The notes beneath the pieces were generated by a model. That model did not search any database. It saw nothing but the letters and a program-made list of their open reading frames with translations, and had not been told where the DNA came from. From Bacteroidota bacterium (GTDB lineage Bacteria > Bacteroidota > Bacteroidia > Bacteroidales > P3), in NCBI GenBank assembly GCA_017860255.1, contig JAFNAR010000002.1, positions 1 to 64,000 on the forward strand: 64,000 bases of DNA. Direction: 5' to 3'. Every line of letters begins with the position of its first letter. The stretch's first letter is position 1. This document shows, in pieces, positions 8,835 to 64,000 of the stretch. A program made the translations under genes and the position numbers.

Positions 8835-9176
8835 ATTAATTCTTTAAAGATTTATGTATAACAAGCAATATTATTCAGTTTGAACACTACAAATTTATAT
8901 AATAATACGATAAATTTTAATATATATTGCAGGAAAATAAATCTTTCTGATCAACTTTTTAAAAGACTCATTTTTTTGATCGATTATTAGCAAAATGGAG
9001 TTGTAAAAACAATAATCTTAAATTAAGAAAAAACAAATCGCCTATATGTCAAAAGCATATTGCCCAATATCGCCGATTTACTTATAGCGAAACGGCGATT
9101 CACTTTTGGTAAATCGCCGTTTTGAAGTATATATATCTTGTATTAAGGTCTTTAAAGTTCCTTAAAGTCTTAAGCT
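8835..9176. other. Intergenic region between two receptor genes
   Basis: 342 bases without a gene. On the minus strand a TAAATTTG box near 8890-8897 could be the -7 element for the downstream receptor; no clear TTG partner is seen. The half nearer the second receptor holds the GC-word array at 9035-9119. Confidence 0.5.
9035..9119. repeat. 22 bp phased GC-word array (array 2)
   Basis: Related words AATCGCC (about 9036), TTGCC (about 9060), ATCGCCGATT (about 9069), AACGGCGATT (about 9091) and AATCGCCGTT (about 9113). The last three are 22 bases apart, and one is written with the inverted centre (CGGCG against CGCCG). The first pair is also 22 apart but out of phase with the rest. These words stand out in an AT-rich gap. 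Confidence 0.6.
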
Positions 9177-15659: not shown

Positions 15660-15782
15660 GTAATTTAACATTATTTAACTCTATTTCCCCCTAATTTAAG
15701 AATTAGAGTTTGTAATTATAGCATAGTTTTAGATGGAAAATGCGAAATAGTTTCTTAAAATTGATTTTCTAAAAAAACAAGG

Positions 15783-16010
15783 GATATAATTGAAAATATA
15801 TCCCTTATATTTTAAAATATATCAGACATATTTTCAATTATGATTGATCTTTTTTGAATTTTGATTGACTTTTTTTTGCTAAAATGTCTTTTTTCTAAAT
15901 CCTTACCTTAAGAAATTAAAGTAAGGTTTCAGTAAATTAAAACAAGGAGTTAGTAAATTAGAATAAGGTTTTATTTTACTGAAATAAGGAGTTAGAAAAA
16001 TGAAATAAAG
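15783..16010. repeat. 21 bp phased word array (array 3)
   Basis: The 15661-16109 gap is largely filled by words on a 21-base lattice. Word centres: GGGATAT about 15785, TCCCTTA about 15804, TCAGACA 15825, TGATTGA 15844 and 15865. The A/G-rich words GTAAGG, ACAAGG, ATAAGG, ATAAGG and ATAAAG then begin at 15921, 15942, 15963, 15984 and 16005, exactly 21 apart. Linking text such as AGTAAATTA also partly recurs. No ORF spans it. Confidence 0.75.
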
Positions 16011-16030
16011 AGATAATTCTGTGAAATTAA

Positions 16031-29884: not shown

Positions 29885-30081
29885 ATAAGGATAAAATATT
29901 ACAAAACAAAGAGATAATTAATTTTTATAAGGAATAAATTTGGTAAGGTCGTACCTTAGCATCACTATGGTCGTACCTTATTTAATTAAGGTCGTACGTT
30001 AATACTATTATGGTCGTACCTTATCAAATTTTTTCCTTATTTAATTACGTTTAAACAAGGAAAAAAGAAATGAAAATAAGG
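29885..30081. repeat. 21-22 bp phased array with GGTCGTACC core (array 5)
   Basis: The 464-base divergent gap between the DUF5686 gene and the asparaginase gene carries ten phased words. The left flank has ATAAGG 29885, ACAAAG 29906 and ATAAGG 29927. The core has GGTCGTACC or GGTCGTACG at 29947, 29969, 29990 and 30012. The right flank has TCCTTAT 30034, ACAAGG 30055 and ATAAGG 30076. Successive spacings are 20-22. The core word is a near-palindrome (GGT, then CGT or ACG, then ACC) always followed by TTA. The rest of the gap shows no gene. Confidence 0.8.
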
Positions 30082-36065: not shown

Positions 36066-36179
36066 ATTTTGATGCAATTTCTGCATCAGGGTTATTGTGC
36101 TATTTATAATATTGATTATAATATACATATACAAATAAAACGTTCTTTGAAAACTGCAAAAGCAAATCTACAAAATTAC

Positions 36180-36274
36180 ACGCCGTGTTTCGATATTTTA
36201 CACGCCGTGTTTCGATGTGTTTGACGGCGTATTTCGATGCGTGAGACGCCGTGTTTTGATGCGTTTGATGGCGT
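36180..36274. repeat. 22 bp phased GC-word array (array 6)
   Basis: Five units start at 36180, 36202, 36224, 36246 and 36268, each exactly 22 bases apart. They read ACGCCGTGTTTCGAT, ACGCCGTGTTTCGAT, ACGGCGTATTTCGAT, ACGCCGTGTTTTGAT and ATGGCGTG. The head word ACGCCGT/ACGGCGT is an odd palindrome whose centre base flips. The array lies in the 612-base gap upstream of the HU-like gene; the remainder of the gap (36066-36179, 36275-36399) holds a short hairpin near 36069-36091 and nothing else recognised. Confidence 0.8.
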
Positions 36275-36399
36275 GTAAATTTTACTGATTCTCTTTAAGA
36301 AATTTAATGGTTGATTATGAGTGAGATATAATTAAATTAAAAAGGGTTAAAAAAACTCTTTAATAAATATTTTTTTTGTTTAACTTAATACCAATATTT

Positions 36400-42222: not shown

Positions 42223-42275
42223 AAAAGAAGTTGGTTGAGCTGTTAAGTTATATTAGATGTATTTTCAGAAAAACA

Positions 42276-42364
42276 TCAATCATAATCAAAAATAAGTCAA
42301 TCATATTTGAAAATAAATCAATCAAAAATAAAAATATATCAGACATATTTTTAATTATGATTGA
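42276..42364. repeat. 21 bp phased word array (array 7)
   Basis: TCAATCA starts at 42276, 42297 and 42318, and TCAGACA at 42339, exactly 21 apart. The inverted TGATTGA follows at 42358. This lies between the recJ promoter and pdxJ and shares the words of arrays 3 and 10. The rest of 42223-42529 has no gene; a TATCTTTG box near 42499-42506 may be the pdxJ -7 element. Confidence 0.7.
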
Positions 42365-53808: not shown

Positions 53809-54165
53809 CCTTCAATAGTATTTCATAGTAGCTTTTAGTAATTTCTCTCCAATAATTTATACATAATTTCACCCCAATTCCTATTTAAAAATATTCTTAT
53901 CTGATATAAGTGTATCAAATCCTTATTATAATTGAAAAAGATAAGGATTAAATTTGTTAACGTACGACCTTAATATTGCTAAGGTACGACCTTAATTAAA
54001 TAAGGTAGGACCATACTGTTGGTAACGTACGACCTTACTCAAGTAACATGCCACCTTACTGATAGTATGGTGCCACATTACTGAATTTTTCCCTTATTTA
54101 AATAAATTATTTCTTGATTTCAGTAAATTTATTCTTGATAAAAATTTATGGAAAGAGGGTTTAAA
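53775..54165. repeat. Long direct repeat, left copy (DR1)
   Basis: Starts inside the 3' end of the YjdI-like gene and runs through the whole gap to the MFS gene stop. It aligns with 59287-59660; long blocks are nearly identical, for example the 53813-53960 stretch around ATACATAATTTCACC. The first 39 bases match at 34 positions. It includes array 8. The copies differ by gain or loss of 21-22 base units. Confidence 0.85.
53920..54139. repeat. 21-22 bp phased array with GTACGACC/GTGCCACC cores (array 8)
   Basis: Core words start at 53962, 53984, 54005, 54027, 54048 and 54070 (GTACGACC, GTACGACC, GTAGGACC, GTACGACC, ATGCCACC, GTGCCACA), spaced 22, 21, 22, 21, 22. CCTTAT 54092, CTTGAT 54113 and CTTGAT 54134 continue the lattice. 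Upstream, AATCCTTAT and ATAAGGATT form a perfect inverted pair. It lies between convergent genes and contains no ORF. Confidence 0.85.
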
Positions 54166-59286: not shown

Positions 59287-59660
59287 TCAAGCCTTGATCT
59301 ACTATATAAATAATGAATAACATTCAATAGTATTTCATAGTAGCTTTTAGTAATTTCTCTCCCATAATTTATACATAATTTCACCCTAATTCCTATATAA
59401 AAATACTTTTATCTTATATAAGTGTATCAAATCCTTATTATAATTGAAAAAGATAAGGATTAAATTTGCTAACGTACGACCTTACTTGAGTAACATGCCA
59501 CCTTACCGATAGTATGGTGCCACCTTACTTATAGTATCGTGCCACCTTACTGAATTTTTCCCTTATTAAAATAAATTATTACTTGATTTCAGTAAATTTA
59601 TTCTTGATTCTAATAATTTCTTTCTTGATATAAATTTGAAAGAATAAGGTTTGAATATAC
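59287..59660. repeat. Long direct repeat, right copy (DR2)
   Basis: Copy of DR1. It starts with a decayed version of the last 34 bases of the YjdI-like gene, without the rest of that gene, showing that DR1 is the original context. The phased words start at 59474, 59495, 59517, 59539, 59561, 59582, 59603 and 59624, spaced 21-22. Relative to DR1, a 65-base block (three units) is absent, one GTGCCACC unit is doubled, and one extra CTTGAT unit of 21 bases is present. Confidence 0.85.
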
Positions 59661-59776: not shown

Positions 59777-59850
59777 TAGCGGGGACGAGAGTTGAACTCG
59801 TGACCTCCGGGTTATGAATCCGACGCTCTAACCAACTGAGCTACCCCGCC
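59777..59850 (-). tRNA. tRNA with CAU anticodon (probably elongator tRNA-Met)
   Basis: 74 bases, with no CCA encoded. Acceptor arm GGCGGGG with CCCCGCT (first pair G-U), D arm GCTC/GAGC, anticodon loop TTCATAA, T arm ACGAG/CTCGT with loop TTCAACT. It lacks the initiator's three G-C pairs in the anticodon stem. The last anticodon-stem pair is A31-C39 and the first is a T-G wobble. A CAU anticodon could also be the lysidine-modified Ile tRNA; the identity elements do not settle it by eye. Confidence 0.88.
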
Positions 59851-63868: not shown

Positions 63869-63902
63869 TATATCCCTTTTTTAATTAATACTAAAATTTA
63901 AA

Positions 63903-64000
63903 GGGACTTATTTGAAAATATGATTGACTTATTCAAAAATATATCAGATATATTTTAAAATATGATTGATATATTTTTAATTATATCGGGACTTTTTTCT
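63903..64000. repeat. Phased word array at the window end (array 10)
   Basis: GGGACTT 63903, TGATTGA 63921, TCAGATA 63944, TGATTGA 63963 and TCGGGAC 63986, with spacing of 18-23 (mean about 21). The words are those of arrays 3 and 7. It continues to the window edge. Confidence 0.55.

Follow-up and report, generated by a model that had tools for sequence, protein, structure and literature searches.

A lattice of short words between DUF5686 and ansA as one copy of a putative dispersed non-coding element in Bacteroidales

What kind of element places short words at steps of 20–22 bases between two divergent genes, with variable bases in between? The question is raised by the gap between the DUF5686 and ansA genes in the window, i.e., the whole 64,000-nt stretch of DNA analyzed here, which opens contig 48 of a Bacteroidales genome of 2.58 Mb (G000) whose closest named relatives by AnsA are the MAGs Bacteroidales bacterium UBA5515, UBA4866 and UBA4893. 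An earlier note on this DNA described ten words on a 20–22 base lattice in this gap, and direct reading bears this out, with successive steps of 21, 21, 20, 22, 21, 22, 22, 21 and 21. The left outer words read ATAAGG (29885), ACAAAG (29906) and ATAAGG (29927), and the right ones TCCTTAT (30034), ACAAGG (30055) and ATAAGG (30076). Between them the near-palindromic word that the note had placed at 29947, 29969, 29990 and 30012 was read as GGTCGTACC at three of these positions and as GGTCGTACG, differing in the final base, at 29990. TTA follows all four GGTCGTAC words after one intervening base, which in the third copy, described as variant, is G instead of C. The full core word is a 15-mer, TAAGGTCGTACCTTA or TATGGTCGTACCTTA, with TAAGGTCGTACGTTA as the third copy and fillers of 7, 6 and 7 nt. 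The element is mirrored in part only: the first right outer word is inverted, and the second and third are oriented like the left ones. Its parts are as follows.

29885–30081, no strand assigned: the reported lattice of three outer words, four palindromic core words and three outer words (direct reading; steps 20–22)
29944–29958, no strand assigned: core word 1, TAAGGTCGTACCTTA, followed by filler 29959–29965
29966–29980, no strand assigned: core word 2, TATGGTCGTACCTTA, followed by filler 29981–29986
29987–30001, no strand assigned: core word 3, TAAGGTCGTACGTTA, followed by filler 30002–30008
30009–30023, no strand assigned: core word 4, TATGGTCGTACCTTA

The lattice is not local to this gap. 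When 6-mer recurrence is counted over the 7,345 nt of intergenic DNA in the window, lags 21 and 22 reach 93 and 70, whereas dinucleotide shuffles give 8 and 9 (z 22.8 and 16.2), and there are echoes at lags 42–44 and 65, so that the periodic excess, for which the earlier note had asked to see shuffled controls, is real; removal of the reported gap still leaves 84 and 59 (z 20.7 and 13.5). The word GGTCGTACC, with at most one mismatch, occurs nine times in the window against 1.2 expected and a maximum of 4 among 100 dinucleotide shuffles. Four of the nine belong to the reported lattice, and the other five lie in two further arrays at 53.9 and 59.4 kb, which are listed here with the remaining arrays of the window.

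94–208, no strand assigned: array of TATAATGGCATTATA words at 22-bp pitch, with CCTTATTTA outer words
9071–9119, no strand assigned: short array of AACGGCGATT / AATCGCCGTT words
15779–15881, no strand assigned: AT-rich array of ATATTT / AAATAT words at 21-bp pitch
15910–16015, no strand assigned: AAATTAAAATAAGG array with 7-nt fillers at 21-bp pitch; close species differ by whole 21-nt units
36167–36278, no strand assigned: ACACGCCGTGT array at 22-bp pitch
42260–42345, no strand assigned: AT-rich array, with different words at the same place in genomes G006 and G010
53945–54145, no strand assigned: mixed array in a convergent gap, GGTCGTACC-type and then GGTGGCACC-type words
59487–59635, no strand assigned: GGTGGCACC-type array in a convergent gap, with one GGTCGTACG word just upstream in coordinates (59473–59481)
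63898–63985, no strand assigned: AT-rich palindromic array of ATATATCAGATATAT type at 21-bp pitch

A minus-strand tRNA at 59777–59850, the sole match in the window to the curated RNA covariance models of Rfam at the gathering threshold, shares its gap with the array at 59487–59635.

Arrays are also present elsewhere in the genome, whereas the earlier note had named their absence as a refutation: a 408-kb sample of G000 contains 49 arrays in 44 of 173 gaps, and lags of 15–19 and 24–39 yield little. Among all stretches analyzed, one (L130) consists only of N. In a sample of the genus, the lattices cover 8.59% of intergenic bases vs 0.060% of coding bases. Gap classes, which are based on ORFs of at least 90 aa and not on curated genes, differ in how often they hold an array. 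Among genus-sample gaps of at least 80 nt, a count that includes orthologous gaps of several species, arrays were scored in 31/57 convergent, 48/176 co-directional, 17/88 divergent and 19/49 contig-edge gaps (convergent vs divergent, p 2.4e-5), and in the own genome alone in 13/25, 23/88, 4/37 and 14/31, respectively (convergent vs divergent, p 0.001). With convergent gaps favored over divergent ones to this extent, the suggested role as an insulator between divergent genes is unlikely to be general.

The word differs from array to array; in many it is a 15-bp palindrome around a single unpaired center base, to which a filler of 6–7 nt is added. A single nucleoid-protein motif was rejected because of this diversity of words. 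Self-complementarity of the arrays amounts to 993 windows vs 29 ± 14 (maximum 80) in column-permuted tandem controls; taken singly, 22 of the 49 arrays are self-complementary at p<0.02 and the remaining 27 are not. Among palindromes listed for having 6/7 pairs and a like neighbor at 21, 22 or 42–44, 85 are odd-centered (four of them from one contig counted twice) and 9 even-centered. When no pitch is preset, like odd palindromes lie 22 (34 cases), 44 (23), 66 (14) or 21 (6) bases apart, all other spacings occurring at most 5 times. The palindromes fall into classes by a constant inner 7-mer, e.g., ATGGCAT, ACTAAGT, AGCGGCT, GTCGTAC and GTGGCAC. Within N4-ATGGCAT-N4 the arms take the forms TATA/TATA, ATTC/GAAT, GATC/GATC, CGAA/TTCG, AAAG/CTTT, CCTT/AAGG and GCTC/GAGC, and from the outermost position inward the Watson-Crick fraction is 0.41, 0.73, 0.90 and 0.75 over 63 distinct words and several pair types; the arms of this class change yet mostly stay complementary.

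The pitch of the ATGGCAT class is 22 in 126/126 steps with 21 also allowed, a figure partly given by the search for the other genera, because their loci were retrieved with a fixed 22-bp pattern, whereas L039, L048, L049 and L052 of the own genome were found otherwise. The idea that every word sits on the same helical face is weakened in its strict form: since the ATGGCAT pitch is rigid at 22 and the arms of sister-genus elements at 23, phase drifts along the array at 10.5 bp per turn, and the rigid quantity is unit length, not helical face. The fillers do behave as the note had supposed in calling fixed spacing with variable filler unlike a simple tandem repeat. In own-genome ATGGCAT arrays filler identity is 0.35 (chance 0.26) and that of the outer arms of the word 0.81, and a simple tandem repeat was rejected since the words are kept more than the fillers; in sister-genus arrays the values are 0.51 and 0.89. 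The number of core units is four in 13/16 sister-genus arrays and five in 11/19 own arrays. The criteria for a CRISPR array (24–48 bp repeats, regular longer spacers) do not describe these 15-bp words and 7-nt fillers.

Beyond the core, the elements follow a mirrored plan, which is clearest in the sister genus (G011, G022, G032, G074): about four inward-pointing words at 23 bp, four palindromes at 22 bp, and then the mirror image. Ahead of the core the outer words lie at −90, −67, −44 and −21, and after it their reverse complements lie at +6, +29, +52 and +75; the positions shift by about 22 when one of the core words is degenerate. Such words, which were derived from the elements examined, several of these being copies (11 distinct of 15), flank both sides in 16/18 elements and are wrongly oriented in none; all eight of them, at four mismatches, were found in L272 only. 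For 21 own-genus ATGGCAT arrays, the correlation of flank profiles is 0.74 at offset 0, 0.36 at −1, 0.41 at +1 and at most 0.09 beyond; it could also stem from copies in both orientations, and some of the flanks used still contained insertion-sequence ends. Because two-orientation copies could produce this signal, each element was tested by itself. In the 16 sister-genus elements the 63 nt on the left agree with the mirrored 63 nt on the right at 0.63 in register vs 0.25 ± 0.03 at other offsets, and two elements without those outer words reach 0.65 (L198) and 0.62 (L269); three of the 16 score 0.29–0.37, and in these the core search gave only three exact words and the outer-word comb is displaced by 22 nt on the side concerned (phase 28). 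The same test on ten own-genus elements gave 0.44 in register vs 0.32 ± 0.02 out of register, split into five elements at 0.51–0.59 and five at 0.25–0.35, three of the latter five having an insertion-sequence end on one side. Judging from these scores, the mirror of the own genus is weaker but present. A gapped comparison of left and right flanks over 52 arrays of all classes found no excess of similarity within arrays (8.88 within vs 8.83 between arrays, permutation p 0.40; controls 8.44 shuffled and 8.85 unmirrored).

Comparison of close species shows that the arrays change by whole units and swap words. In the DUF5686/ansA gap itself, five TATGGTCGTACCATA-type units stand in G002 (AnsA identity 99%) and four units, all with GGTGGCA, in G010 (AnsA identity 94%), between conserved flanks; no such array was found in this gap in G007 and G008. 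Upstream of ansA in G006 (L006), a run of N in the assembly falls exactly in the array, with inverted array ends on either side. At 15.6–16.1 kb the close species differ in 21-nt steps, at 42.2 kb G000 and G002 have different words from G006 and G010, and at 25.5 kb lattice words are seen in G000, G006 and G010 and none in G002 and G007. Among placeable orthologs of array gaps, 7/9 in G002 and 4/7 in G010 were likewise scored as arrays, frequently with other words; one of the misses in G010 is the ansA gap, whose score stays below the threshold.

This turnover is what a neutral minisatellite would show, in which slippage and template switching at palindromes copy 21–22-nt units in place without any function: units are gained and lost in 21-nt steps, the words of a whole array are exchanged at one place, and arrays are alike internally and different between places. 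Such a process predicts broad unit lengths or equal divergence of words and fillers, and the opposite was measured, with words kept beside near-random own-genome fillers (0.81 vs 0.35, chance 0.26) and a single narrow period despite unrelated words. The uniform unit number (four in those 13/16 sister-genus arrays) and the mirrored plan in fixed register speak against it as well, and we consider a minisatellite very improbable.

Mobile DNA is repeatedly found next to the arrays. The window starts with an end of an IS3-family element (1–94), and 13 contig ends of the own genome share the same 63–98 nt, which is the end of an IS3-family element in G010 (L275; OrfB 233 bits to NF033516). The junction lies within 50 nt of a lattice palindrome in 10 of the 13, eight of these being 25–28 nt from the last full one, as a raw count of proximity. 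IS3-family ends in or beside palindrome arrays were seen at the G000 contig ends L048, L228, L232, L236, L238, L239, L262 and L264, and a second IS-like end (TGACCCGTCCTGAATAAGG) was seen in or beside ATTCATGGCATGAAT arrays at L208, L230, L237 and L052. IS1397, likewise of the IS3 family, targets the BIMEs of Escherichia coli.

The arrays may also be mobile for their own sake, as MITE-like transposons whose oriented outer words and core would be the putative sites of a transposase supplied in trans. Near-identical copies stand at two places per genome in mutually inverted orientation (L265/L266 of G074, L244/L245 of G011), similarity links 63/147 gaps, the words at 25.5 kb are present in some species and absent from others, unit number is uniform per genus, and BrickBuilt of Porphyromonas gingivalis is described as a MITE with 23-nt repeats (PMC4596501). 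A clean empty site with a target duplication was nevertheless not found in the compared close species, and the orthologous gaps that so often still score arrays with changed words fit such insertions poorly. No autonomous partner was recognized in a transposase survey confined to Y1 enzymes, which are absent from 11 of the 14 lattice genomes. Taken together, a MITE seems to us unlikely.

The reading that we prefer, at a probability of about 0.5, is that the lattice is a copy of a dispersed non-coding element, an array of putative protein sites on duplex DNA that is mirrored about its middle. Its core would be formed by some four or five 15-bp palindromes at a pitch of 21–22 bp, each of a size suited to a protein dimer, with further words at 21–23 bp on either side pointing toward the core. 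Proteins would occupy neighboring sites side by side, their footprint thereby setting the unit length, and the complex, as in REP/BIME sequences, might help to disperse the element, mark the ends of genes, or do both. Cooperative protein binding, as proposed in the earlier note, accordingly stands as what is still probably the best reading, but a single sequence-specific protein fails to explain the many words per genome; these would require either a large set of proteins or a single one that recognizes shape or the core alone.

An alternative to protein sites on duplex DNA is folding within one strand. In this scenario, transcribed RNA or single-stranded DNA would form long stems or, like REPINs, tandem stem-loops, and would serve as a bidirectional 3′ end, an mRNA stabilizer or a transposition intermediate. 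Own-genome elements do fold at a mean z of −3.8 (n=52; 29 below −3) against −1.3 for array-free gaps (n=89; 12 below −3), z is −9.1 for L041 and −4.7 for the element of the window, and each of seven elements of the sister genus folds into one hairpin of very high stability (−154 to −215 kcal/mol). The mirrored layout, the preference for convergent gaps and the compensatory arms point the same way, and a hairpin whose loop is conserved would also be expected to have compensatory arms around a constant inner core. RNA action is hinted at by the GCAAATG word, which has its G.U form on the sense strand in 3/3 co-directional loci, the remaining five of its eight loci being two convergent, one divergent and two at an edge. 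Against this, mismatches in sense orientation across 49 co-directional array gaps comprise 16 G.T and 18 A.C. Arm units agree equally at the same and at different levels (0.769 vs 0.759, p 0.27; 0.654 vs 0.678, p 0.95), in a test made within 11 elements with copies dropped (7/10 and 4/5 kept), the comparison between elements being distorted by inverted copies. Because G.T equals A.C and the arms lack level-by-level co-variation, duplex DNA read by proteins is favored over a hairpin; within-strand pairing does not look like a kept property in these sequences. Nor does a hairpin need a rigid 21–23 pitch, and the Rfam match in the window is limited to the tRNA. We hold a hairpin element to be rather improbable.

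How far does this kind of element extend? ATGSCAT repeated at 22 bp occurs in 14/61 genomes of the family, from 4/12 genera. The own genome has 124 such pairs and G002 has 180; the pattern in reverse, used as a control, has no occurrence in those 14 genomes and one to four in four others. The ATGGCAT core is common to four genera. Patterns built on GGTSGYACC (22 bp) and GACTWAGTC (21 bp) each occur in 3/61 genomes, namely G000, G002 and G010, and the reversed GACTWAGTC pattern gave one hit, in G002. Among 149 genomes drawn from the order, a three-word ATGGCAT pattern was found in one, the own genome. Beyond the family, among 17 stretches from G037–G060, each up to 20 kb long, arrays reaching the threshold were found in G046 only, as two short ones. 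Peaks at lag 21 in G033 and at several other loci were discounted as 7-nt tandem words; L182 of G033 carries long arrays of TTGAACT-type 7-nt words, which are another kind of repeat and likewise give a lag-21 peak. Two patterns searched in 2.9 million viral contigs gave three and four hits, none of them such an element by eye and five of the seven lying in ORFs or plain tandem-like sequence, and plasmids queried with one element gave no match. A MAG called Prevotellaceae bacterium contains 22-nt arrays (L079:1-351; AACATGAGGGCATGTTATTATA), and GC-rich Bacteroidales contigs contain palindromic 21–22-nt arrays at L098:9617-9787 (AAACTAAGTCTTAGTTT) and L110:6394-6558 (CCCACAGCTGTGGG). Given the arrays in L098 and L110, the plan may extend past the genera sampled.

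Extragenic palindromic repeats have long been known, their function is not agreed, and the best-known ones bring their own transposase. The arrays described here are an abundant kind without that transposase, whose geometric plan is kept across genera despite changing letters, which allows the conserved property (pitch, dyad and mirror order) to be told apart from the letters themselves. Tests with designed arrays in a laboratory strain could thereby address what these repeats do, and the arrays also have a bearing on the breaks that assemblies of these genomes show at these sites. They may be an unrecognized kind of protein-binding or mobile DNA element. A bolder proposal, which we advance only tentatively and with the odds against it, is that they represent a new class of non-coding element which passes on its architecture and not its sequence. 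Its scaffold, mirror-symmetric and of 4-4-4 form in one genus, would consist of oriented as well as palindromic sites at a pitch of 21–23 bp and would occupy a substantial fraction of the gene ends in a single Bacteroidales family; core and arm words would be replaced between genera and even from locus to locus within one genome, presumably tracking a set of co-evolving binding proteins.

The earlier note knew of no described element of this form, and our literature search, covering open papers only, likewise gave none with a mirrored plan of palindromes at 21–23 bp. Several known systems share part of it. Foldback transposons of eukaryotes have inverted arms built from short tandem units; the arrays here differ in having a palindromic core and in showing no level-by-level co-variation of arm units. 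In plasmids, iterons of about 22 bp set several sites at about two helical turns; the present arrays differ from these in being palindromic and dispersed over chromosomal contigs. Membership in the REP/RAYT system was rejected: the Y1 (RAYT) transposase PF01797 was found neither in G000 nor in 11 of the 14 ATGGCAT-lattice genomes by a search that detects the E. coli one, and it is present in the lattice genomes G004, G007 and G008. REP-type elements are extragenic palindromes that occur in arrays and inverted pairs, many per genome and mostly in convergent or co-directional gaps, with frequent G.T pairing in their stems (PMC3733652); their inverted doublets show compensatory changes (PMC3116915) and the palindromes are hot spots of IS insertion (PMC1525189). 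The arrays here resemble them as high-copy extragenic palindromes that favor convergent over divergent gaps and are adjoined by IS ends, and they differ in their 15-bp units, strict 21–23 bp pitch, many unrelated words per genome and mirrored plan, as well as in G.T being equal to A.C.

BrickBuilt of P. gingivalis, which belongs to the same order, consists of intergenic 23-nt tandem units with predicted long stem-loops, and it has one consensus, 19 copies of 1 to 22.8 units, and a leader and tail with IS-like terminal repeats (PMC4596501). Compared by eye, the printed consensus does not match the present arrays, whose core units are 21–22 and whose arms are 21 or 23 with other words; they also differ in having many words and typically 4–5 core units, and in that the ends of the element could not be fixed. 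With regard to terminal inverted repeats of an IS and insertion polymorphism, the arrays have mirrored flanks and one case of presence/absence, and neither an element end nor a target duplication could be fixed. By our own reading, the printed consensus in tandem contains TCTCRTRTGAGA, which is possibly palindromic. BrickBuilt is the nearest described tandem form.
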